A DNA stretch of 64,000 nucleotides from Microbacterium esteraromaticum (lineage in GTDB: Bacteria; Actinomycetota; Actinomycetes; Actinomycetales; Microbacteriaceae): positions 3,100,001-3,164,000 of the forward strand of contig NZ_JAFBBS010000001.1 in assembly GCF_016907315.1 (NCBI RefSeq), in the 5' to 3' direction. A model generated the notes under the pieces. That model saw nothing but the letters and a program-made list of their open reading frames with translations, was not told the DNA's origin and ran no database searches. Below are positions 5,274 through 37,179 of this stretch, one piece after another. Each line of letters begins with the position of its first letter. The first letter of the stretch is position 1. The position numbers were made by a program, and so were the translations under genes.

Positions 5274-6827
5274 ATGTCTTCTCTCTCCTCCGAACCGACG
5301 ATCATCGCGCCCTCCGACGCGGCGATCACCGCCGACGGGCGCCGCCGCTCCTACGAGGTGCGCACCTTCGGCTGCCAGATGAACGTGCACGACTCCGAGC
5401 GCCTGTCGGGCTCGCTCGAGAGCGCGGGCTACGTGCCAGCGGATGCCGGCGACGAAGCCGACATCGTGATCATCAACACGTGCGCCGTGCGCGACAACGC
5501 CGCGGGCAAGCTGTACGGAACGCTCGGCCACCTGAAGTCCCGCAAGGACAAGCACGAGGGCATGCAGATCGCGGTCGGCGGCTGCCTCGCGCAGATGGAC
5601 CAGCAGGCCGTGCTCGACAAGGCACCCTGGGTCGACGTCGTCTTCGGCACGCACAACATGGGTTCGCTTCCCGGTCTGCTCGAGCGCGCCCGCCATAACG
5701 GCGAGGCCGAGCTCGAGATCCTCGAATCGCTCGAGATCTTCCCCTCGACGCTGCCGACGAAGCGCGACTCCGCCCACAGCGGATGGGTGTCGATCTCGGT
5801 CGGCTGTAACAACACGTGCACGTTCTGCATCGTGCCCAGCCTCCGCGGCAAGGAGAAGGACCGGCGACCGGGCGACATCCTCAACGAGATCCGCCTGCTG
5901 GTGGAGGACGGCGCCATCGAGGTCACTCTGCTCGGACAGAACGTCAACTCGTATGGGGTCGAGTTCGGCGACCGCCAGGCGTTCAGCAAGCTGCTGCGCG
6001 CTGCGGGTGAGATCGAGGGACTCGAGCGGATCCGCTTCACGAGCCCGCACCCGGCGGCGTTCACCGACGATGTGATCGACGCGATGGCGGATACGCCGAA
6101 TGTCATGCCGCAGCTGCACATGCCGCTCCAGTCCGGCAGCGACAGCATCCTCAGGGCGATGCGCCGCTCGTATCGCAGCTCGCGCTACCTCGGCATCATC
6201 GAGCGTGTGCGCGAGCGCATCCCGCACGCCGCGATCACCACCGACATCATCGTCGGATTCCCCGGTGAGACGGATGAGGACTTCGAAGACACCATGCGCG
6301 TCGTCGAGCAGTCACGGTTCTCCGGCGCCTTCACCTTCCAGTACTCCATCCGCGAGGGCACACCCGCCGCGACCATGGAGAACCAGGTGCCCAAGGAAGT
6401 CGTTCAGCAGCGGTATGAGCGACTGATCGCCCTGCAGGAGCGCATCTCGCTCGAAGAGAATCAGAAGCAGGTCGGCCGCGAGGTCGAGGTGCTCGTCTCC
6501 GTCGGTGAAGGCAAGAAGGACACCGAGACGCACCGTCTCACGGGGCGTGCGGAAGACAACCGTCTCGTGCACTTCGAGGTCACACCCGGATCAGAGCTCC
6601 CGCGTCCCGGCGATGTGGTCACGGTCAGGATCACTCACGGCGCGCCCTTCCACCTCCTCGCCGACGATCCCACTGGCGCTCCGCTTCGCATCCGACGCAC
6701 CCGCGGCGGTGACGCATGGGATCGTGCGCAGGCGGCCTCCTGCGGTGTTCCCGCACCCGCGTCGGACTCAGGGGCACCCCGAGCGGTCTCTCTGGGCCTT
6801 CCCACGCTGCGTCCCGTCGGCTCTTGA
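5274..6827 (+). CDS. miaB: tRNA-2-methylthio-N6-isopentenyladenosine synthase MiaB
   Basis: This radical-SAM enzyme adds the 2-methylthio group to i6A37 of tRNAs reading UNN codons. Three N-terminal cysteines (C34 in TFGCQMN, C70 in NTCAVRD, C104 in GGCLAQ) bind the auxiliary cluster. C178, C182 and C185 (CNNTCTFC) bind the radical-SAM cluster. A TRAM domain lies near residues 400-470. The 517-residue length includes an extra low-complexity C-terminal tail of about 50 residues. The stop overlaps the miaA TTG start (TTGA), pairing the two steps of ms2i6A synthesis. Confidence 0.96.
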
Positions 6828-9219: not shown

Positions 9220-9867
9220 CTACTCGGGCAGGACGATCGGTGCAGTCGGGGGATTGCCGTGGCGACGCACCTTGAGGATGCGGTAGCCCTTGCCCGTCGC
9301 GGCTCGGGTCACGCTGTATCCCGGGGTGAAGACCGACGTCATCCATCGCTGCAGCGAGTCCGAGCCGAGGTTTCGCTGCACGACCATCCACGCGTCGCTG
9401 CGCTCGTCGAGACGGGGGATCCAGCGCTCGAGCATGCTGTGCAGTTCGCTCTTGCCGACGCGGATCGGCGGGTTCGAGCGGATCGTCGTGAACGCGACAT
9501 CGTCGGGAACATCCTCGGGCTTCACGGCGTTGACATTGGTGAGGCCAAGGGACTCGGCGTTGCGTCGGGTCAGATCCAGCGCCCGCTCGTTGACGTCGAC
9601 CGCCCAGATGGTGGCGTGCGGCGCTGAGAGGGCCATGGTGAGGGTGATCGGACCCCAACCGCATCCGAGGTCGAGGAAATTGCCGCTGGGCGGCAGAGGA
9701 GCCATGTTGGCGAACAGCACCGCGGTGCCGGTGTCGAGACGGTCGGGACTGAACACGCCGCCGGCGGTGGTCACCTCGCGGTCGCGCCCCGCGAGCGGGA
9801 CCGTGATGGTTCGAAGATTCTCGGCACTGGCCGGGGCCGCACTGAAGTAATGATCGGACGACGGCAT
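9220..9867 (-). CDS. Class I SAM-dependent methyltransferase, RsmC/RlmG-like
   Basis: The 215-residue protein carries the SAM-binding loop LDLGCGWGP (about residues 66-73), an acidic strand end AVDVNERAL and the N6/N2-type motif SNPPIRVG (about 131-138). SNPPF/I after a GCGxG loop is typical of the RsmC/RlmG family that methylates guanine N2 in rRNA. The N-terminal pseudo-domain of full RsmC is absent, so this matches the short actinobacterial form. The substrate is inferred only. It is divergent from hflX across 70 bp. Confidence 0.85.
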   Translation of the reverse strand: MPSSDHYFSAAPASAENLRTITVPLAGRDREVTTAGGVFSPDRLDTGTAVLFANMAPLPPSGNFLDLGCGWGPITLTMALSAPHATIWAVDVNERALDLTRRNAESLGLTNVNAVKPEDVPDDVAFTTIRSNPPIRVGKSELHSMLERWIPRLDERSDAWMVVQRNLGSDSLQRWMTSVFTPGYSVTRAATGKGYRILKVRRHGNPPTAPIVLPE

Positions 9868-9937
9868 GCAGTGAGCGTACCGGACACCGCGGGCTAAGGT
9901 TAAGGCGCTTCTCAGAGAGGACAGAGTTCACCACCGG

Positions 9938-11446
9938 ATGACGAACACCAACGACGACAACACCACACAGGATGCACTGGATCGCGTGCTGGCGAATTCC
10001 GAGCCGCGCACTCAGCCGCGCGTGTTCGGCGCAGCTCAGGCGCTGCAGGACACGGCATCCGCCGCCCACACCGATGCGGACGGCGAGCAGTGGGACCTCG
10101 AGGACCGACATGCGCTTCGTCGCGTCGCGGGCCTCTCCACCGAGCTCGAAGACGTCACCGAGGTGGAGTACCGCCAGCTGCGCCTCGAGAACGTGGTGCT
10201 GGTTGGCGTGTACCCACAGGGTGCGCAGGAGGATGCCGAGAACTCGCTGCGCGAGCTCGCCGCTCTCGCCGAGACCGCCGGCGCCGTCGTGCTCGACGGT
10301 CTGCTGCAGCGCAGGCCGCATCCCGACCCCGCGACCTACCTCGGCCGAGGCAAGGCGCAGGAGCTGAAAGAGATCGTCGCCGCCGTCGGCGCGGACACGG
10401 TGATCGCCGACACCGAGCTCGCCTCCAGCCAGCGCCGCGCCCTCGAGGACGTCGTGAAGGTGAAGGTCATCGACCGCACCACCGTCATCCTCGACATCTT
10501 CAGTCAGCATGCGAAGAGCCGTGAGGGCAAGGCTCAGGTCGAGCTGGCACAGCTCGAATACCTGCTTCCGCGCCTGCGCGGCTGGGGTGAGTCGATGAGC
10601 CGCCAGGCCGGTGGCCAGGTCGGTGCCGGCGGCGCGGGTATGGGTTCGCGTGGACCGGGTGAGACGAAGATCGAGCTCGACCGCCGCCGCATCCGCACGC
10701 GCATGGCGCAGCTGCGCAAGCAGATCCGGGACTTCGCACCCGCTCGCGATGCCAAGCGCGCTGAGCGCAAACGCAACACGATCCCGTCCGTCGCGATCGC
10801 CGGATACACGAACGCCGGCAAGTCGAGCCTGCTGAACGCGCTGACCAGTGCGGGCGTTCTGGTCGAGAACGCCCTGTTCGCAACCCTGGATGCCACCGTG
10901 CGCCGCGCCGAGTCGGCTGACGGCCGGGTCTACACCCTCGCCGACACCGTCGGATTCGTGCGCAACCTGCCGCACCAGCTCGTCGAGGCGTTCCGATCCA
11001 CCCTCGAGGAGGTCGGTCAGGCGGACCTGCTCGTGCACGTGGTCGACGGCTCGCATCCCGACCCGTCGGCCCAGCTGCAGACTGTGCGCGACGTGATCGG
11101 AGATGTCGGCGGGCGGGACATCCCCGAGATCGTCGTCTTCAACAAGGCCGACCTGATCGACGCCGACGAGCGGCTGGTGCTGCGCGGGCTCGCGCCAGAC
11201 GCGCATTTCGTGTCGTCGCGCACGGGGGAGGGCATCCCCGAACTGCGGGCGGAGATCGAGCGCCGGCTGCCGATGCCGGCCGTCGAGGTCCGCGCGCTGG
11301 TGCCGTACGACCGCGGCGACCTCATCTCGGCCGTGCACGAGAGCGGTGTGCTGATCTCGGCTGAGCACGAAGAGAACGGCACCGCCGTGCATGCCCACGT
11401 CTCGGAGCGCCTCGCCGCCGAGCTCGCGCCCTTCACCGTCAGCTGA
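9938..11446 (+). CDS. hflX: GTPase HflX
   Basis: HflX is a ribosome-associated GTPase that splits stalled or stressed 70S ribosomes. The N-terminal HflX domain has YLGRGKAQEL. The linker has GPGETKIELDRRRIRTRM. The G domain has GYTNAGKSSLLNALT (G1), DATVRR, DTVGFVRNLP (G3) and FNKADL (G4). The 502-residue length includes a roughly 60-residue acidic N-terminal extension. It is followed immediately by a strong terminator. Confidence 0.95.
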   Translation: MTNTNDDNTTQDALDRVLANSEPRTQPRVFGAAQALQDTASAAHTDADGEQWDLEDRHALRRVAGLSTELEDVTEVEYRQLRLENVVLVGVYPQGAQEDAENSLRELAALAETAGAVVLDGLLQRRPHPDPATYLGRGKAQELKEIVAAVGADTVIADTELASSQRRALEDVVKVKVIDRTTVILDIFSQHAKSREGKAQVELAQLEYLLPRLRGWGESMSRQAGGQVGAGGAGMGSRGPGETKIELDRRRIRTRMAQLRKQIRDFAPARDAKRAERKRNTIPSVAIAGYTNAGKSSLLNALTSAGVLVENALFATLDATVRRAESADGRVYTLADTVGFVRNLPHQLVEAFRSTLEEVGQADLLVHVVDGSHPDPSAQLQTVRDVIGDVGGRDIPEIVVFNKADLIDADERLVLRGLAPDAHFVSSRTGEGIPELRAEIERRLPMPAVEVRALVPYDRGDLISAVHESGVLISAEHEENGTAVHAHVSERLAAELAPFTVS

Positions 11447-16089: not shown

Positions 16090-17147
16090 CCTGCGGCCTC
16101 GAGCGTGCGCACGGTGGTGCGCGGGGGCTTCACGCGAGCCCGGAGTTTCATCGCCGGGCGCTCGACGAGCAACCAACTCGCCCATGCGAGCGGCACCGTC
16201 GCGGCGATTGAGGTCAGAACGTAGAGCCAGAGCGGCAGGTCTCGCCCGATCGTGATCGCGAGAAGTTGCTGCACCGGGAAGGCATAGACGTACATCCCGT
16301 AGGAGATGTCGTTCTCGGCGCCGACCCGGTGCAGTGGCAACGCGACGCCAAGCCACATGCAGAGGTACGCCAGGGGAACCGCCGCCAGGATGTCGAACGT
16401 GCCAGTTACAATCGTCAGCACGACGGCCGCAGCGGATGCTGCGGCGAACTCCCACCGGTATGCGACCCGGTGGCGGAGGAAATACAACAGCGCACCGGCG
16501 GCGAAGTAGGTTCCGAGGCGCACAGTGTGCAGGATTACGTTGATGTGCAGCACGTCAAGATACACGTGCGCGGCGGTGACGGCCATTCCGGCGACCAGCG
16601 TGACGACGAGCACGCGCACGAGCCATCGTCGCGAGATGAACGTCATTGCGAGCCCGATGGCGAGGTAACACAAAGCCTCGTAGAACAGCGTCCACAGCGA
16701 CCCGTTCCACGCTCCCGCGTATGGCGCGTCTGTCAGCGTGCCAGTCATTTCGAACGTGAAGATGTATAGGCCCGCGTTCTTGACCAGGTACTCAAGCCCA
16801 GCGCCGATCGAGTAGTCGCCCATGACGAATGCTGAAAGCGGGGCGAACACAAATGCTGTCACCGCGAGCACGACGATGAACGCTGGATAGATCCGCAGGA
16901 GTCGACGCAACAGGAACGGGCCGAGCTTCGAGTGGTCCCGGCTGCCCGCGATCAGGTATCCGGAGATCACGAAGAACCCGGCAACCGCCCACGATCCGAG
17001 CGAGTTGAACGCACCAGGGCCGGCTGGCTCGTCACCGTGCCCGTTCAACGGCCACGAATGAGAGACGATCACCGCCGTTGCCAAAAGCAACCGCAGAGCA
17101 TTCAGGCTGTTCCGCTTCGGGTTGAACGCGGCCCCCAGTGAAGTCAT
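16080..17147 (-). CDS. Acyltransferase family 3 membrane protein (prophage cargo)
   Basis: This is a 355-residue membrane protein of the OafA/AT3 type. It opens with NSLNALRLLLATAVIVSHSWPL, with the conserved Arg and His of helix 1, then GSWAVAGFFVISGYLIAGS and RRLLRIYPAF. About ten hydrophobic helices follow, with WTLFYEALCYLAIG and the late motif SYGMYVYAFPVQQL. Such enzymes O-acylate surface carbohydrates. Opposite orientation at the element's edge fits a lysogenic-conversion gene that changes phage receptors. It appears intact, although the prophage is dead. Confidence 0.85.
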   Translation of the reverse strand: MTSLGAAFNPKRNSLNALRLLLATAVIVSHSWPLNGHGDEPAGPGAFNSLGSWAVAGFFVISGYLIAGSRDHSKLGPFLLRRLLRIYPAFIVVLAVTAFVFAPLSAFVMGDYSIGAGLEYLVKNAGLYIFTFEMTGTLTDAPYAGAWNGSLWTLFYEALCYLAIGLAMTFISRRWLVRVLVVTLVAGMAVTAAHVYLDVLHINVILHTVRLGTYFAAGALLYFLRHRVAYRWEFAAASAAAVVLTIVTGTFDILAAVPLAYLCMWLGVALPLHRVGAENDISYGMYVYAFPVQQLLAITIGRDLPLWLYVLTSIAATVPLAWASWLLVERPAMKLRARVKPPRTTVRTLEAAGQG

Positions 17148-29485: not shown

Positions 29486-29508
29486 TAAGATAGGTGAGCC
29501 TAACCTGC
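29486..29508 (+). promoter_or_regulatory. DtxR/IdeR-type iron box and -10 of the ferric ABC operon
   Basis: TAAGAT (29486-29491) is a good -10. Overlapping it, 29490-29508 matches 15 of 19 positions of the DtxR/IdeR consensus, with core AGGTGAGCCTAACCT. The site covers the expected start of transcription, so Fe-bound repressor would block initiation. The identical core recurs at 35799-35813. Confidence 0.8.
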
Positions 29509-29522
29509 CCGAAGGGAACCAC

Positions 29523-30557
29523 ATGCCTGCCTCCCGCATGCGTCCGCTCGCACTCATCGCAGGTGTCGCCGCCGCGGCGCTGCTCGCCGGCTGCGCACCC
29601 GCCGCTGACGGCCCGGCCGCGGGTGGCGACGACGCGCTGGTGATCTACAACGCGCAGCACGAGCAGCTGACCGAGGAGTGGACCGCGGCGTTCACCAAGG
29701 AGACGGGTATCGAGGTCAAGCTCCGCCACGGCGACGACAGCGAACTCGCCAACCAGCTCGTCCAGGAAGGCGAGGCGTCGCCGGCCGACCTGTTCCTCAC
29801 CGAGAACTCGCCGGCCATGTCGCTCGTAGAGAGAGCCGGGCTCTTCGCGCCCGTCGACGACGCCACGCTGCAGCAGCTGCCCGAGCAGTTCCGCCCGGGC
29901 ACCGGGGCGTGGACCGGTATCGCCGCACGCGACACGGTGCTCGTGTACAACCCCGAGCTGATTGCGGAGGACGATCTGCCCACCTCGATCCTCGAGCTGC
30001 AGGACGACAAGTGGAAGGGCAAGTGGGGGGCCGCTCCCGGCGGTGCCGACTTCCAGGCGATCGTCTCGGCGATCCTCGCATCCGAGGGCGAAGACGCGAC
30101 GGGCGAGTGGCTCGCAGGCATGCAGAGCAACGCGAAGATCTACCGGAACAACATCGTCACGATGAAGGCCGTCAACGCCGGCGAGGTTCCGATGGGCATC
30201 ATCTACCACTACTACTGGTACCGCGATCAGGCAGACACCAAGGAGAACAGCGCCAACACAGCCCTGCACCTGTTCGAGCCGGGCGACCCGGGAGCGTTCG
30301 TGAGCATCTCGGGTGGCGGCGTCCTCGCATCCGGCGACCACGCCGAGAACGCGCAGAAGTTCCTGGCCTGGCTGGTCGGAGAGAAGGGTCAGAAGATCCT
30401 CGGCGAGGGATACAGCTACGAGTACCCCGTGGCGACGGGCGTTCCGGCCCGATCCCCGCTTCCGGCGCTGGATTCGCTCGGCGCGCCCGATATCGACCCG
30501 TCGACCCTCAACGGACCCACGGTGGTCGAGCTGATGACCGAGGCAGGACTCCTCTGA
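29523..30557 (+). CDS. Ferric-iron ABC transporter substrate-binding lipoprotein
   Basis: This 344-residue secreted lipoprotein has a lipobox ending at C24 (LLAGC). The mature part begins LVIYNAQHEQLTEEWTAAF, typical of FbpA/FutA-type ferric-binding proteins. It has a late Tyr cluster IIYHYYWYRDQ, where Tyr residues bind Fe3+ in this family. It captures iron outside the membrane for the permease encoded next. An iron box overlaps its promoter. Its stop overlaps the CTG start of the permease. Confidence 0.88.
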   Translation: MPASRMRPLALIAGVAAAALLAGCAPAADGPAAGGDDALVIYNAQHEQLTEEWTAAFTKETGIEVKLRHGDDSELANQLVQEGEASPADLFLTENSPAMSLVERAGLFAPVDDATLQQLPEQFRPGTGAWTGIAARDTVLVYNPELIAEDDLPTSILELQDDKWKGKWGAAPGGADFQAIVSAILASEGEDATGEWLAGMQSNAKIYRNNIVTMKAVNAGEVPMGIIYHYYWYRDQADTKENSANTALHLFEPGDPGAFVSISGGGVLASGDHAENAQKFLAWLVGEKGQKILGEGYSYEYPVATGVPARSPLPALDSLGAPDIDPSTLNGPTVVELMTEAGLL

Positions 30558-32110
30558 CACTCGCAGCCGAGCGCGCGTCGGGTGCCGTCCGCCCGCGGGG
30601 GGCGCGCACCTATCCCTGGACGCTGGCGCTCGGCGTCGCGGGTGCCGCCGCCTTCGCGCTGATCCCCGTCGGCTACGTCGTCGTCTCCTCGGTGCAGACC
30701 GGAGGACCGCGTCTGCTCGAGCTGCTCGTGCGGCCCCGGGTCGCGGAGCTGACCGTGAACACCGTGCTGCTCGTCGCGCTCGGCGTGGCGGCGACGCTGG
30801 TGATCGGCATCGGCGGGGCCTGGCTCGTGGAGCGGACGACGCTGCCGCTGCGCCGTGTGTTCGCCGTCGCACTCGCCGCGCCACTCGCCATCCCGGCCTT
30901 CGTCACGAGCTACGGGTGGGCGAGCGCCGCCCCATCATTGAACGGCATAGGCGGAGCCGTGCTCATCGCGGCATGCGCGTACTCGCCCCTGGTCTACCTG
31001 CCTGCGGTGGCTGCACTGCGCGGGCTCGATCCCGCGCTGGAGGAAGCGGCGCGCTCGCTCGGGCTCGGCCCATGGACGGTCTTCTTGCGGGTGGTCCTGC
31101 CGCAGCTGCGCATCGCCGCTGTGGGCGGTGGGCTCGTCGTCGGGCTGCACCTGCTCGCCGAGTACGGCGCGTTCGCGTTCCTCCAGTTCGACACCTTCAC
31201 CACCGCCATCATGGATGCCTATCGTGCGAACTTCGGCGGGGCGAACGCGGCGGCGCTCGGTGTGGTCCTCGCCGGCCTCTGCCTGCTGATGGTTGTCGGC
31301 GAGGGGCGGATGCGGGGCACGACCCGGCTGTCGCGCAGCGCCGCATCCCGCCCCGGAGGCCGCGCCGCTCTCGGGCGCTGGACCGCCCCGGCGATCATCT
31401 CGCTCGTCGTGGTCGTGGGCGCCTCGGTCATCGTGCCGATGGCGTCGGTGCTGCGCTGGACATCGCGCAGTGACGCAGCCGACTGGGCGCCGGTCGGCCC
31501 CGCGGCCTGGCAGACCGTGCTGCTCTCGGTAGGCGGAGCTGTAGCGTGCGCGATCGTGGCGCTGCCGGTCGCGTGGCTGGCGGTGCGTCACCGCGGACGC
31601 CTGAGCGGAGCGCTCGAGGGAGCGTTCTACCTCGCAGGCAGCTTTCCCGCCATCATCGTGGCGCTCGCCCTGGTCGGTGTCACCCTCAAGGCCGCGCCCG
31701 CCCTGTACCAGACCGCCGCAACCGTGATCCTGGCATATGCGATCCTCTTTCTGCCCCGCATCCTGGTGCCTCTGCGAGCTGGACTCGCTCAGATCTCGCC
31801 GGCGTGGGAAGAAGCTGCTCGCTCGCTCGGCGCGCCGCCGTGGCGTGCGCGTCTGCGCATCACCGCGCCGCTGCTGGCGCCTGCGGTCGCGAGCGGTGCC
31901 GCGCTCGTTGCGCTCGGGGCCTCGAATGAGCTGACAGCGACCCTGCTGCTCGCCCCGATCGGCACCGAGACCGTCGCGACGGGCTTCTGGTCGGCGGCAT
32001 CGGCGATCGACTACGTCGCAGCTGCCCCGTTCGCGCTGACTCTCATCGCGCTGTCGATCCCCGCTGTCCACCTGATGTTCTCGGAAGCGACCTCGAGAGG
32101 CGGCGCATGA
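30554..32110 (+). CDS. Ferric-iron ABC transporter permease (two-domain, CTG start)
   Basis: This 518-residue permease of the FbpB type has two fused membrane halves, each with the EAA loop: [23 protein letters not shown] and [22 protein letters not shown]. About 12 helices are visible. No in-frame ATG, GTG or TTG lies before the first helix. CTG at 30554 overlaps the preceding stop as CTGA, and is the probable start by analogy with ATGA coupling. It moves Fe3+ through the membrane with the binding protein and the ATPase that flank it. Confidence 0.85.
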
Positions 32111-33177
32111 CCCTCCAACTCACCGGCATCGGGAAGTCGTTCGGTGCTGTGCCCGTGCTCGAGGACGTCGATCTCGCCGTGCCCTCCGGATCGCGCCTGG
32201 CGCTCGTCGGCGCGTCGGGCAGTGGCAAGAGCACGCTGCTGCGGCTGATCGCCGGGTTCGAGCGGCCCGACGCCGGGCGCATCGCACTCGACGGAGCCGT
32301 GCTCGCCGATTCGCGCACATCTGTGCCCGCCCACCGTCGCGGTATCGGCTTCGTGCCGCAGGACGGAGCGCTCTTCCCCCACATCACCGTGGCGGGCAAC
32401 ATCGGCTTCGGCCTGTCACGGGGACCGCGTCGAGCAGCTCGCGTGCGCGAGATGATGGAGCTCACCTCACTCGCTCCCGAGCTCGCCGATCGACGACCTC
32501 ATGAGCTGTCGGGCGGACAGCAGCAGCGTGTGGCATTGGCCCGTGCGCTCGCGCCGGCACCTCAGGTGATCCTGCTGGACGAGCCGTTCAGCGCGCTGGA
32601 CGCCGGCCTGCGCGCACAGACACGCGAAGCGACCGTCGACATCCTCGAGCGGGCTGCGGTCACGACACTGCTGGTCACCCATGACCAGGACGAGGCGCTG
32701 TCGTTCGGCGACCTCATCGGGGTGGTTGCCGGCGGGCGCCTGGCGCAGGACGGCGAGCCGAGCGCCGTCTTCGACGCACCCGTCGACCTCGCCACCGCCG
32801 AGTTCCTCGGTGACGCTCTCACGCTGAGGGCCCGACGCCAGAGTGCGGCCGAGATCGTCTGCGCCCTCGGCAGGGTCTCCGTACGCCACGACCGCTCCAA
32901 CGGCTCGGACGAGATCGTCGCCATGATTCGCCCGAACCAGCTGGAGCTCGTCATGCCCGCAGCAGACAGGGGTGCGGCGGGGGCGGGCGCGGGTGCTGCG
33001 ACGATCACCGCTCGGCGCGCGATCGGCTCGCGCACCGAGCTGCGCGTCGACATCCACGGCGACGACGGCGCGCGCGTCTGGCTGCAGGTGCCCACCCATC
33101 GGGCGGCCGAAACCAGAGACGGCGATGTCGTCGCCGCGCGCGTCGGTGGCGGCGCGGTGCTCTATGCGGCGCCCTGA
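32107..33177 (+). CDS. Ferric-iron ABC transporter ATP-binding protein
   Basis: This 356-residue ATPase has Walker A GASGSGKS (35-42), signature [15 protein letters not shown], Walker B VILLDEP and the H-loop [14 protein letters not shown]-terminal TOBE-like domain of about 100 residues follows, as in FbpC. ATG overlaps the permease stop (ATGA), completing a binding protein-permease-ATPase operon. The last 16 bp overlap the 3' end of the convergent fusion gene. Confidence 0.9.
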
Positions 33178-35762
33178 GCATACGAGCGCGGTCGGATGAG
33201 CGCCTTGGCCAGCCGCAGGACGGGGCGGTAGACCGCCCAGGCGGCGATGCCGGTGGCGAGTGACAGCAATGTGCCGACGAGCGGCGCCGACTGCTCGAAC
33301 GGCGGATACACGACCCAGTGCGTCAGGTAGATGAAGAGGGACGCCGACGCGATGGTGGTCAGCCAGGGACGCAGCAGCGAGGGGATGTGGATCGAGGGCA
33401 GCCAGATCAGGGCGAGCACGCCGATCGCGACGATGGCCTCACGCAGCGGCTCCCCGAAGAATCCGGGGACGAGAGCGAGCGTGAGCAGCGTGGCGACGAT
33501 GCGGCGCCGTGGGTCGTCGGCGCGTGCGACGACGGCTCCCAGCGCGATGCACCACAGCACCGTCGCGACCGCATAGCGCTCGATGTGCTGTGCGGGCGCG
33601 GCGCCCAGCACGGCGAATCGCACGACGACTGCGATTGCGAGGGCAGCCATCGCGAAGCCCCACGGGGCGCGGCGCTCGAGCCGGTCGACGGCAGGGATGG
33701 CGAACAGCGCAGACAGGGGCAGCATGGTCCACACCATCGCCTCGAGGAACCAGAACTGCCACTGCTCGCTCCACAGCCCGTCGCCAGGCACCGCGTTGTT
33801 CACGAGCAGCGCGGTCGAGGGATCGTACTTTCCGCTCAGCAGTCCGACGGCGCCGATCCACAGCACCGCGGGGACCACCACGTGTGCGAGTGCGGCGAGA
33901 AGGCGGCGCGGACGATCCGGCGCCGAGGGCGAGATCGCGAACCTCGCCAGGTTGTACCCCGCCACCACCAGCAGCAGGTGCGCCCCGCCCTTGAGCGAGA
34001 ACCCGTCGCCGAGGAACAGATCGGCGTGTGTGCCCACGATCAGCACGATCGCGATCGCCCTGATCAGCACGGGCGTCTCGATCGCGGTGAGCGAGGGCCG
34101 TGTCGCGCGCCACCTGCGGGTGGTGTCGGTCGAGAGCGTGACGTCGTCTGCGGACGGCGCCGCCGGCGCGAGCTCGGCGAGCTCGACGGCCGACCGAGCC
34201 GGCCAGTCACGGGGGAGCGCACCGAGCAGCTGTTCGAGCCGAACCGACGCCTCGACGTAGCTCAGGGAGTCGCCGCCGAGCGCGGCGAAACTGTCGTGCA
34301 CAGTGGCGTCGGCTCGTCCGGTGCACACCGCCAGCACATCGCGCAGGCTCGACGGCGTGATCTCACCGGGGACGACACCGGGCATCGCCGCTGCGCGCTC
34401 CGCATGATGGTGCGCCACGAGCGCGGCGTTGTCGGGTTTGCCAGACGAGGTGACGGGGAAGGAGTCGATCGTGTGCACCGTGACCGCTGACGACGGGATG
34501 CCGACGCGTCGCGACACCTGAGTCCGTGCCTCGCTCGCATCGCGGCCGTCGCGCACGAAGACCAGCAGCTCTTCGCCGTCGGCTGCGGTGCGTGAGGGGA
34601 TGCCTGCCTCGGCGAGCTGATTCTGCACCGCGTCGAGGTCGATGCGCAGTCCGAAGATCTTGACGAATCGGTTCATGCGTCCGACGATCTCGACGTAGCC
34701 GTCCGCCCGCCAGCGGGCGAGGTCGCCGGTGCGCAGCTCGTGAACCGTGCGACCGAGAGCGAGATCCGCGGGTTCCTCGGCGTAGCCGAGCATGACGTTC
34801 GGGCCCGAGTAGACCAGCTCACCCGATTCGCCGTCCGTCGCGTCGATGTGGAACGATCCGCCCGGGATGGCCCGGCCGATCGAGCCCGCGGCGCGTACGG
34901 CATCCGCCGGTGGCAGGTACGACATCCGCGCCGTCGCCTCGGTCTGTCCGTACATCGTGAAGAACTCGAAGCCGCGGTCCCGGCCCGCGAGAGCCAGCTC
35001 GCGAACTCGCTCGGCAGGCAGACGTCCGCCGGCCTGCGTCAGATACCGGATGCTGTCCGGCAGTCTCTCGACTCCGCCGACGGCGTCGATCAGCTCGAAG
35101 GTGTAGGGAACGCCCGCGAGTCCCGTGACGCGCGTCTCTGCGGCCCGCAGCCAGAACGCCTCGTCCGACACCGAGGCGTCGCTGAGAACCAGGCTGCCGC
35201 CGACGAGCAGATGGCTGTTGATCACCGACAGCCCGTAGCAGTAGTGCATGGGCAGGGTGGTGATCGCCCGATCGGCCGCACCGAGGCTGAGATAGTCGGC
35301 AATGGCCGCGGCGTTCGACAGCATGGCCTCTCGCGAGATGCGGACGAGCTTCGGGGAGCCCGTCGATCCAGACGTGCTGGCCAGCAGCGCGAGATCGTCG
35401 TGCAGAGTGTGGGCGGTGCCGTCGCGGCGCTCCCAGAGGGGGCCTCGTCCGGCGATGACGTCGGGATCGAATCGCTCGATGAGCGTCTGGCGCGTGCGCT
35501 CAGCCGACTCATCGTCGCCCCCGGGGGCGAGCATGACCGGATGCCCGCCGGCAAGCGCTCCGAGGTAGGCGGTGAGCGCATGGGTCGTGTTGGCGGCCTC
35601 GAGGAGCACGAGTCGCCGGGTGGTGCCCAGCCGTTGACGGATGTCGTCTGCTCGAGCGGTCAGCTCTGCGTATGTCAGATCCCCGTCGTCTGTGCAGAGC
35701 GCTACGGCAGCTGGTTCGCCACGGAGCAGATCCACTGATGCGGCGGGGGAGACGGTGATCAC
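33162..35762 (-). CDS. Adenylation / carrier / membrane acyltransferase fusion
   Basis: This 866-residue three-domain protein starts with an adenylation domain (1-450) with STSGSTGSPKLV (A3), YGQTEATARMSYLPP (A5), TGDLARW (A7) and the A10 lysine K442 in SSGKPDN. The A4 region HYCYGLSV has no obvious Asp for an amino group, so a non-amino carboxylic acid substrate is possible. A carrier domain (about 470-530) has the phosphopantetheine serine S499 in LGGDSLSYVEA. The rest (about 560-860) is an AT3-type membrane acyltransferase with about ten helices, beginning LIRAIAIVLIVGTHADLF (helix-1 Arg and His). I infer activation of an acid, loading on the carrier and transfer to an acceptor across or at the membrane. 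GTG at 35762 is the start; an iron box lies 35 bp upstream. Confidence 0.85.
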   Translation of the reverse strand: MITVSPAASVDLLRGEPAAVALCTDDGDLTYAELTARADDIRQRLGTTRRLVLLEAANTTHALTAYLGALAGGHPVMLAPGGDDESAERTRQTLIERFDPDVIAGRGPLWERRDGTAHTLHDDLALLASTSGSTGSPKLVRISREAMLSNAAAIADYLSLGAADRAITTLPMHYCYGLSVINSHLLVGGSLVLSDASVSDEAFWLRAAETRVTGLAGVPYTFELIDAVGGVERLPDSIRYLTQAGGRLPAERVRELALAGRDRGFEFFTMYGQTEATARMSYLPPADAVRAAGSIGRAIPGGSFHIDATDGESGELVYSGPNVMLGYAEEPADLALGRTVHELRTGDLARWRADGYVEIVGRMNRFVKIFGLRIDLDAVQNQLAEAGIPSRTAADGEELLVFVRDGRDASEARTQVSRRVGIPSSAVTVHTIDSFPVTSSGKPDNAALVAHHHAERAAAMPGVVPGEITPSSLRDVLAVCTGRADATVHDSFAALGGDSLSYVEASVRLEQLLGALPRDWPARSAVELAELAPAAPSADDVTLSTDTTRRWRATRPSLTAIETPVLIRAIAIVLIVGTHADLFLGDGFSLKGGAHLLLVVAGYNLARFAISPSAPDRPRRLLAALAHVVVPAVLWIGAVGLLSGKYDPSTALLVNNAVPGDGLWSEQWQFWFLEAMVWTMLPLSALFAIPAVDRLERRAPWGFAMAALAIAVVVRFAVLGAAPAQHIERYAVATVLWCIALGAVVARADDPRRRIVATLLTLALVPGFFGEPLREAIVAIGVLALIWLPSIHIPSLLRPWLTTIASASLFIYLTHWVVYPPFEQSAPLVGTLLSLATGIAAWAVYRPVLRLAKALIRPRSYAQGAA

Positions 35763-35796
35763 TGGTTGCTGGCTTCTTCTGGCTCGGTGAAACGGG

Positions 35797-35815
35797 CAAG
35801 GTGAGCCTAACCTAT
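35797..35815. promoter_or_regulatory. DtxR/IdeR-type iron box of the fusion gene
   Basis: The 19 bp match 15 positions of the DtxR/IdeR consensus; the 15-nt core AGGTGAGCCTAACCT is identical to that of the ferric ABC operon. On the minus strand it overlaps TAGGTT, a possible -10 of the fusion gene. Relative to the divergent MFS gene it lies about 50 bp upstream of that gene's best -10 (35849), so its control of the MFS gene is less certain. Confidence 0.78.
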
Positions 35816-35824
35816 CCTCGCGTT

Positions 35825-35854
35825 CTGATCTGAATCGGGGTGCTGGTTTAGACT
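35825..35854 (+). promoter_or_regulatory. Candidate promoter of the MFS gene
   Basis: CTGATC (35825-35830) and TAGACT (35849-35854) are separated by 18 bp and would give a leader of about 95 nt before the MFS ATG. The -10 fits TANNNT; the -35 is weak. Confidence 0.4.
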
Positions 35855-35955
35855 GCTCTTCGGGCGCTGCGCCCATTCCACTGTGTATCCACCGGCCGTC
35901 GGCGCCCCGACGGACAACGGCGGCACCCGATCCGCGTCGAGCACGCGCGAGAGCC

Positions 35956-37179
35956 ATGACACAGACACCACTTCCCTCGCCGAGTCTGCTGAGACTGACC
36001 GGCATCCCGTATTTCGTGATCGCATTCGTCGCGAGACTGCCCTTCGCGATGATGGTGGTCGGCGTGCTGACCATGGTGGTCTCGATCCGCGGATCGCTGT
36101 CGCTGGGCGGACTCACCTCGGCGGCGGTGGGTCTCGGCACCGCGCTGTTCGGGCCACTTCTCGGCGCAGCGGCCGACCGCTGGGGTCAGCGTCCGGTGCT
36201 TCTGATGTGCGCGGCGCTCAACGCGGCGATGCTCGCCGTCTTCGCACTCGTCGTCTACACGCCGCTTGCCGATGCCGTCGTTCTCGCGTCAGCGTTCATG
36301 ATCGGCGCCACCGCCCCGCAGGTCTCGCCGATGTCGCGATCGCGGCTGGTCACGATCATCGCCGAGCGGATGCCGCAGGCGCAGCGTGCTCGCACCACCT
36401 CGGCCACCATGTCGTACGAGTCCGCAGCCGATGAGACCGTGTTCGTCTTCGGGCCGTTCCTGGTCGGGCTCCTCGCCTCGTTCATCGCCCCCTGGGCGCC
36501 GATCGCGATCGCCTCAGCGCTCACCCTGCTGTTCGTCGGGGCGTTCGCGCTGCACCCGACGGGACGCCATGTCTCGGTCGAGCGCGACAGCGACGGGCGC
36601 GCGCCGTCGGACGTGTCCGAGCTCTTCCGGCCGGCTCTGCTCGTCGTCGTGGTCGGCATCTTCGGGATCGGGCTGTTCTTCGGCGCCAGCCTGACTGCGC
36701 TGACCTCGTTCATGGCCGACCGCGATGCCGCCGAGCAGGCGGGCCTGCTGTACGGAGTGATGGGCGTCGGCTCAGCGGTGCTCGCGCTCGGGGTCGCCTG
36801 GCTGCCGCCTCGCTTCACGCTGCACGCGCGGTGGATCGCCTTCGCCGCTGTGCTCGTCGCGGGCTCCCTGCTCTTCGCGACGGCCACGAGCGTGATCACG
36901 ATGATCGTCGCGCTCGCGCTGGTGGGCATCGGAGTCGGACCGACCATCGTCACGCAGTACAGCCTCGGTGCCGCGCGCAGTCCGCTCGGACGCTCGGCCA
37001 CGGTGATGACCATGCTCGGATCAGGCGTCGTGGTCGGACAGGCCCTCGCCGCCGCCGTCACCGGCGCTGTCGCGGACGGACCGGGCACGTCGGTCGCGCT
37101 GCTGCTGCCCCTCGTCGCGGCATCGATCGTGCTGATCGCGGGCATCGTGAACCGCATCATCAGCCCCCGACAGCACTGA
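35956..37179 (+). CDS. MFS transporter next to the fusion gene
   Basis: This 407-residue protein has 12 hydrophobic helices. It begins LLRLTGIPYFVIAFVARLPFAMMVV, with the loop 2-3 motif ADRWGQRPVLL. The second half begins near LFRPALLVVVVGIFGIGLFFGAS. The group is typical of exporters. Its divergent position to the fusion gene suggests it exports or imports the fusion product or a siderophore; this is inference. The Shine-Dalgarno is weak (GAGAG). Confidence 0.82.
   Translation: MTQTPLPSPSLLRLTGIPYFVIAFVARLPFAMMVVGVLTMVVSIRGSLSLGGLTSAAVGLGTALFGPLLGAAADRWGQRPVLLMCAALNAAMLAVFALVVYTPLADAVVLASAFMIGATAPQVSPMSRSRLVTIIAERMPQAQRARTTSATMSYESAADETVFVFGPFLVGLLASFIAPWAPIAIASALTLLFVGAFALHPTGRHVSVERDSDGRAPSDVSELFRPALLVVVVGIFGIGLFFGASLTALTSFMADRDAAEQAGLLYGVMGVGSAVLALGVAWLPPRFTLHARWIAFAAVLVAGSLLFATATSVITMIVALALVGIGVGPTIVTQYSLGAARSPLGRSATVMTMLGSGVVVGQALAAAVTGAVADGPGTSVALLLPLVAASIVLIAGIVNRIISPRQH

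Follow-up and report, generated by a model that had tools for sequence, protein, structure and literature searches.

In the Dlt pathway, as set out in the accessible part of PMC12148441, a ligase loads a carrier protein and a membrane acyltransferase passes the acyl group to an acceptor outside the cell. For the AT3/TmAT membrane acyltransferases (OafB, OatA, Oac), acyl-CoA rather than acyl carrier protein (ACP) is supported as the physiological donor; the consulted text of PMC9558356 mentions AT3 fusions with SGNH and alanine-racemase domains, and contains neither 'adenyl' nor 'phosphopantetheine'. We describe here a 64,000-nt stretch of the Microbacterium esteraromaticum genome (the window; positions 3100001-3164000 of a 3.24-Mb single-contig genome), in which an adenylation (A) domain, a phosphopantetheine (peptidyl) carrier (PCP) domain and an AT3 domain are joined in one chain, encoded tail-to-tail with a ferric ATP-binding cassette (ABC) importer. 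Poly-epsilon-lysine synthetase (Pls) also has an A-PCP unit followed by membrane segments, and ends in tandem soluble condensation-like domains, whereas the C-terminus of the present fusion is an AT3 domain. No published account of an A-PCP-AT3 protein was found in the open-licence literature, outside which most subscription papers lie, and none appears in the available portions of PMC12161575 and PMC13238742. Microbacterium nonribosomal peptide synthetases (NRPSs) with A, PCP and terminal acyltransferase domains and an adjoining aminopeptidase N are described in the part of PMC7438953 at hand; we take that gene to be different from the fusion gene, the two being set apart by description and not by sequence. 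The fusion and its domains are as follows (residues numbered with Met as 1).

33162..35762, (-) strand: A-PCP-AT3 fusion protein, 866 aa (GTG start at 35762, stop at 33162; supported by homologues)
34782..35408, (-) strand: adenylation domain, best Pfam AMP-binding stretch, residues 119-327 (the A10 Lys442 lies further along the chain)
34221..34346, (-) strand: phosphopantetheine carrier domain (Ser499 codon 34266-34268)
33267..34067, (-) strand: AT3 (Acyl_transf_3) membrane acyltransferase domain (R568-x10-H579 retained)

A Pfam scan (E 0.001) matched AMP-binding at 132 bits, PP-binding at 22 bits (cut-off 20.8) and Acyl_transf_3 (PF01757) at 53.8 bits (cut-off 31), the last score placing the protein within the AT3 family. 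The same scan gave no condensation or thioesterase family in the fusion, which is therefore not an NRPS proper. Its A domain carries the TSGSTG core motif and, together with Lys442 and Ser499, this makes the N-terminal part an NRPS-like A-PCP unit; Arg568 and His579 are present as well. An 866-residue A-carrier-AT3 chain free of condensation and thioesterase domains was what a preliminary description, made from the sequence of the window, had claimed, and the scan and Ser499 bear it out. PP-binding matches in the whole genome are limited to the fusion and one short stand-alone protein. Nine AT3 matches were found in the genome, and a second AT3 gene lies within the window (16176-17111, (-) strand).

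The fusion gene is widespread, yet patchy inside genera, and occurs in many families of Actinomycetes, both on chromosomes and on plasmids. With the window's own genome counted each time, homologues were found in 8 of 150 genomes of the family sample (E 1e-60), 11 of 198 of the genus sample (one of them as two segments of a single open frame) and 71 of 394 of the class sample (E 1e-40). Among the 71 class matches, 61 are full or nearly full length, five are partial or in pieces, and five cover the A domain only (G650, G473, G501, G425, G439) and were not counted as fusions. The partial rows (G401, G492, G537, G570, G673) fall inside one open frame of 958-1081 aa and are probably intact proteins with insertions. 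A protein search returned 7444 matches (E 0.001), and the 120 proteins listed all have AMP-binding and AT3 in precomputed Pfam assignments; named relatives include Agromyces, Mycetocola, Cryobacterium, Demequina, Rhodococcus, Streptomyces, Micromonospora, Kribbella and Mycolicibacterium. We compared stretches of up to about 20 kb round the fusion gene at 79 distinct loci, drawn from a contig search (15) and from the family, genus and class samples after removal of duplicates (L094, L096, L097, L104). Nine of the 61 full or nearly full-length class rows (G594, G625, G671, G572, G699, G718, G676, G483, G695) enter the co-occurrence count only. The alignment of 77 fusions was made without L030 (contig end) and L103; L103, whose fusion is intact (898 aa from the first aligned residue), was included in the residue recount, giving 78 rows. 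Ser499, the A10 Lys442, Arg568 and His579 are invariant in all 78.

The AT3 domain differs from its stand-alone relatives at the donor site. Conserved TmAT elements, according to the part of PMC12423673 consulted, are DxxR in transmembrane helix 1 (TMH1; RX10H in AT3s), FxxxxG in TMH2, RxxR in TMH3, a Gly in TMH6 and SxxxY in TMH9, most of which contact the adenosine and phosphopantetheine parts of CoA. Thirty-three of 35 stand-alone actinobacterial AT3s (L004 and L187 missing) served as the reference for the 78 fusions. The acid or Asn (D/E/N) of TMH1 is present in 24 of the 33 stand-alone enzymes, the Phe of TMH2 in 29 and the first Arg of the TMH3 RxxR, at its aligned position, in 32; no fusion has any of the three. 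The second Arg of RxxR is found in 32/33 stand-alone enzymes and 33/78 fusions. At the aligned positions the fusions do not carry the residues (DxxR acid, TMH2 Phe, TMH3 RxxR) that mark an AT3 acyl-CoA site. Retained in every fusion are Arg568, His579, Gly602, Trp671, Gly742, Ser808 and Tyr812, and His815 is kept in 77/78. The fusions thereby share RX10H, the TMH2 and TMH6 Gly residues and the SxxxY of TMH9 (S808/Y812) with OafB, OatA and Oac, and differ from them in being joined to a ligase and a carrier and in the changed TMH1 acid, TMH2 Phe and TMH3 first Arg. Loss of CoA-site residues with retention of the catalytic pair is what one would expect if the fusion's own carrier were the donor. 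A carrier in cis beside an eroded CoA site is the expected look of a donor switch; the support is indirect, as the erosion could have other causes.

The likeness to the Dlt pathway, already drawn in the preliminary description, gains support from these changed residues and from a split locus of Metabacillus that encodes a DltB-like MBOAT enzyme (see below). The fusion nevertheless has AT3 in place of MBOAT, is a single chain, has Gly177 in place of an Asp of LgrA, and is set among iron boxes and a ferric importer rather than in a teichoic acid context. The DltA model scored 63 bits on it (cut-off 560), which puts it outside the Dlt families. We suggest that the fusion works like the Dlt pathway without being a member of it.

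Amino-acid-activating A domains use an Asp to hold the alpha-amino group of the substrate. In an alignment with LgrA this position is occupied by Gly177 in 78/78 fusions, which suggests that the substrate is a carboxylic acid other than an alpha-amino acid. The remaining pocket closely resembles that of ligases from capsule-type clusters (Parabacteroides, Deinococcus, Ponticoccus), with which the A domain shares the motifs YGLSV (FGLSV in Ponticoccus), TQAGG and MYGQTEA..R. These close kin of the A domain differ in that ligase and ACP are separate proteins; the Parabacteroides and Deinococcus ones lie amid polysaccharide genes. Arg279 was considered as a carboxylate anchor that might point to the substrate and rejected, being present also in all nine relatives compared that are not Actinomycete fusions.

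The importer operon (29523-33177) converges on the fusion gene, and each of the two transcription units is preceded by a putative iron box.

29523..30557, (+) strand: ferric-iron-binding protein of SfuA/YfuA type, the substrate-binding protein (SBP) of the importer (structure-database matches; lipobox-like LAGC, by eye)
30557..32110, (+) strand: fused two-domain ferric ABC permease (two BPD_transp_1 stretches; the start position is approximate)
32107..33177, (+) strand: ferric ABC ATPase (overlap of 16 nt with the fusion gene, 3' end to 3' end)
29490..29508 (core 29492-29506), (+) strand: DtxR-type iron box before the ferric ABC operon
35797..35815 (core 35799-35813), (-) strand: DtxR-type iron box before the fusion
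35956..37179, (+) strand: transporter of the major facilitator superfamily (MFS), divergent from the fusion

Among solved ferric-binding proteins the SBP is best matched by 8k7n, YfuA and SfuA (E 1e-118 to 4e-112). With an SBP of the FbpA family, a fused permease and an ATPase, the importer has the make-up of SfuABC, FbpABC and YfuABC, from which it differs in its pairing with a membrane acyltransferase and DtxR-type boxes. The 15-nt core AGGTGAGCCTAACCT is identical at the two sites, as the preliminary description had stated, and stands 16 nt 5' of the SBP start and 36 nt 5' of the fusion start. Against the DtxR consensus TTAGGTTAG(G/C)CTAACCTAA, taken from the part of PMC1382209 available, the 19-bp box at the locus matches at 15/19 positions. 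The genome encodes two DtxR-type regulators (Fe_dep_repr_C proteins), which together with the box are the sequence marks of DtxR/IdeR control, and both promoters are predicted to be repressed by DtxR. A scan of the whole genome with the degenerate core AGGTNAGSCTNACCT gave three perfect places, two of which belong to this locus, and four more with one mismatch; the reversed pattern gave one. Downstream of two of the one-mismatch cores there are FecCD-type iron permease genes: one at 2038535, 2.2 kb from the core at 2036382, and one at 2307345, 1.2 kb from the core at 2306113. The third perfect core (L009:1501-1515; genome 2856771-2856785) immediately precedes the start codon (ATG) of a frame resembling a glycosyltransferase, possibly an iron-regulated glycan gene and possibly chance.

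Both the importer and the boxes recur beside the fusion in other genomes. Homologues of SBP, permease and ATPase are found near the fusion at 53/79 loci (SBP identity 31-100%), and their layout varies: convergent in 25, upstream on the same strand in 14, divergent in 10 and downstream on the same strand in four, which takes at least nine changes among ABC-linked loci on a tree (FastTree only). On plasmids the annotated order is SBP-permease-ATPase-fusion in Mycolicibacterium crocinum and fusion-SBP-permease-ATPase in Rhodococcus opacus B4 and R. fascians D188; on a Pseudarthrobacter plasmid the fusion stands apart from any such ferric ABC unit. A box of at least 14/19 precedes the fusion at 61/79 loci, the SBP at 48 of the 53 linked loci and one or the other at 72/79. 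Where the fusion is last in an operon, the box is at the SBP promoter instead in several loci (L106, L107, L109, L111). Box presence or absence needs six changes on the tree. None of 3950 random 410-nt windows of the same loci, taken at least 900 nt from SBP and fusion starts, reached 14/19. An earlier control had given 17 of 1379 random windows at 14 or above, presumably because SBP promoters were left in; the threshold was set after the result of that control had been seen. The pairing of fusion and box is far beyond chance. In the class sample 66 genomes have the fusion (five as partial rows), 89 have the SBP (E 1e-60), 55 have both and 45 have both within 10 kb (Fisher 1.7e-32, uncorrected for phylogeny); an SBP with 50% identity or more is encoded in 46 genomes, and 39 of these carry the fusion as well. 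Homologues therefore keep the iron box and the ferric ABC neighbours, and have not lost the carrier Ser and A10 Lys, three points on which the preliminary description had proposed that its reading be checked.

The MFS gene, put forward in the same description as a partner of the fusion, did not survive the comparison: a homologue is present at 6/79 loci, all from Microbacterium relatives. Its position points to local synteny, that is, to a real gene outside the conserved unit. With L149 and L151 set aside, the 79 loci show no conserved neighbour besides the ABC genes, a precursor gene or exporter included; the survey used a simple gene caller, which missed the fusion in those two loci and also calls antisense frames (cluster c4, opposite the ATPase). 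In a Leucobacter metagenome-assembled genome an Fe/Mn superoxide dismutase gene lies just upstream of the fusion (L021:2780-3403).

Two further sets of loci bear on the architecture:

L162:6068-14609, one strand: Metabacillus sp. B2-18 plasmid pB218 locus encoding a carrier, an AMP-binding ligase, an MBOAT enzyme, a protein of unassigned family, an Fe(3+) binding protein, a permease and an ATPase
L154:8007-10616, L163:6902-9559, L160:7995-10640 and L159:9950-12487: alphaproteobacterial A-PCP-AT3-like fusions, no ferric ABC annotated nearby

The pB218 ligase is of the same kind as the A domain of the fusion. Its MBOAT is DltB-like (TIGR04091 at 165 bits, cut-off 375; DltB structures 6bug and 8jem at E about 1e-26) and ends in FIYGGF, which fits the FXYXXF acyl-shuttle motif given in the portion of PMC12148441 at hand. 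The ferric-binding protein is nearest to FbpA-family 6g7n and 2pt1, not to SfuA. Fur-like boxes with one mismatch to the Fur consensus stand at 6074, before the carrier gene (start 6346), and at 10805, before the binding-protein gene (start 10857); none arose in 200 shuffles. The protein at 9760-10674 has a GASHS stretch and, judged by eye, might be SGNH/DltD-like. Read from sequence, pB218 appears to repeat the carrier, ligase, acyltransferase and importer logic with a different acyltransferase, FbpA subgroup and regulator motif. The four alphaproteobacterial PCP-AT3 fusions are without the TMH1 acid, TMH2 Phe, TMH3 first Arg and TMH9 Ser, and two of the three scanned score below the AT3 cut-off. 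At the Leisingera locus a zinc ABC operon lies about 7 kb from the fusion.

These data are consistent with a model, in which we have about even confidence, where an iron-responsive, carrier-dependent transmembrane acylation aids Fe(III) capture by the importer. Under iron starvation a DtxR-type repressor would leave two promoters. One would give the Sfu-type ferric importer (lipoprotein, permease and ATPase) and the other the membrane enzyme, which would adenylate a carboxylic acid, in a pocket lacking the Asp that normally binds an alpha-amino group, and load the acyl group on the phosphopantetheine arm of its own carrier at the cytoplasmic side. The AT3 domain would then move the loaded group across the membrane and onto an external acceptor, the carrier replacing acyl-CoA. 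The acylated product, for which we favour an envelope glycan or glycolipid over a diffusible compound, would supply or concentrate Fe(III) for the importer. What the sequence shows is the order of the domains, the intact catalytic residues, the iron boxes, the conserved proximity of the importer and the altered CoA-site residues; we infer the chemistry of adenylation, loading and transfer, the topology, repression by DtxR and a part for the product in capturing iron.

Several observations weigh against this model. The PP-binding score of the fusion is low, barely above the cut-off, and the sole phosphopantetheinyl transferase match in the genome is AcpS-sized (G000:C1:2509914-2510162) and would have to serve the carrier of the fusion too. 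The TMH1 acid and TMH2 Phe are not universal among stand-alone AT3s; moreover, any R..R up to 12 residues before the conserved Pro is found in 20/77 fusions (31/33 stand-alone AT3s), so that in some the TMH3 motif may have moved rather than disappeared. The pocket is so much like that of the capsule-type ligases that it points to no iron ligand and to no particular acid. A complete ABC unit is absent from the stretch compared at 26/79 loci, and ABC linkage needs 18 changes of presence or absence on the tree. Eleven of the 66 fusion-positive genomes have no SBP at E 1e-60, at least five of which (G524, G720, G662, G579, G546) have a weaker SBP match of 31-36% identity beside the fusion. Boxed Sfu-type ferric operons without an adjoining fusion exist (L195-L197, L199-L201); the importer can evidently work alone. 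The split MBOAT locus is a single plasmid record among the 50 of 103 records listed. Finally, the fusions of Rhizobium etli, Sinorhizobium, NT-25 and Leisingera have no annotated ferric ABC nearby (the plasmid gene table is incomplete); the architecture is thus not tied to iron everywhere, which suggests that the enzyme type has found other uses.

The strongest alternative, possible though distinctly less probable in our estimate, is a minimal diffusible siderophore: the AT3 domain would esterify a small acceptor, and the released product would chelate Fe(III) and be taken up by the importer. A siderophore locus would account just as well for the iron boxes and the linked importer. IucA/IucC gave no match in the genome, whose only PP-binding domain, apart from that of the short stand-alone protein, is in the fusion. 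The very different envelopes of the host genera (Mycolicibacterium, Rhodococcus, Streptomyces, Microbacterium) also speak against one fixed wall polymer. We nevertheless regard an envelope acceptor as somewhat more likely than a diffusible one, because no exporter or precursor gene is conserved beside the fusion, the SBP in the window belongs to the ferric-ion (SfuA) type, and the acyltransferase of the split counterpart is a DltB-like MBOAT, from a class described as acting on envelope polymers (PMC12148441, available part).

Less likely is a remodelling of the envelope at low iron that does not involve iron binding, with an acyl group that changes charge or permeability and an importer that is merely co-regulated. 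Surface polymers are known to be acylated both by AT3 enzymes and in carrier-dependent ways (accessible parts of PMC9558356 and PMC12148441), and the A domain has its relatives in capsule- or polysaccharide-type clusters. However, the importer linkage persists or recurs through the changes of layout noted above, and co-regulation alone needs no adjacency. We think it quite improbable that the AT3 domain still depends on acyl-CoA while the A-PCP part makes or tethers something else. CmmA, TmaT and OatA use acetyl-CoA or are reported to, as far as the consulted text of PMC9558356 goes, R568 and H579 are kept, and the looser R..R test was positive in some fusions; yet three CoA-site positions are changed in every one of the 78, and no further enzyme that might accept from the carrier is conserved close by. 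A chance neighbourhood with a chance motif, for which the loci lacking a complete ABC unit might speak, is in effect already excluded by the box counts and their control and by the presence of the SBP in 55 of 66 fusion genomes.

Carrier-dependent acylation in aid of ferric uptake may be part of a broader strategy, which we put forward tentatively and as rather less probable than the model itself. When starved of iron, bacteria would decorate their own envelope with an iron-binding acyl group delivered by a carrier; anchored to the cell, it would stand in for a siderophore and feed an Fbp-type ferric importer. This would have arisen at least twice, in Actinomycetes as a one-chain ligase-carrier-AT3 enzyme under DtxR and in a member of the Bacillota as separate ligase, carrier and MBOAT under Fur; we found no earlier description of such a strategy. 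If the model is correct, the fusion would be the first AT3/TmAT enzyme shown to be supplied by a carrier protein instead of CoA, breaking the working rule of acyl-CoA as AT3 donor, and would provide, in a single chain open to purification and testing, a model of transmembrane acyl transfer. The locus would represent a new class of iron-acquisition locus without NRPS condensation modules or IucA/IucC, and a new way for these bacteria to alter the cell exterior when iron is scarce.

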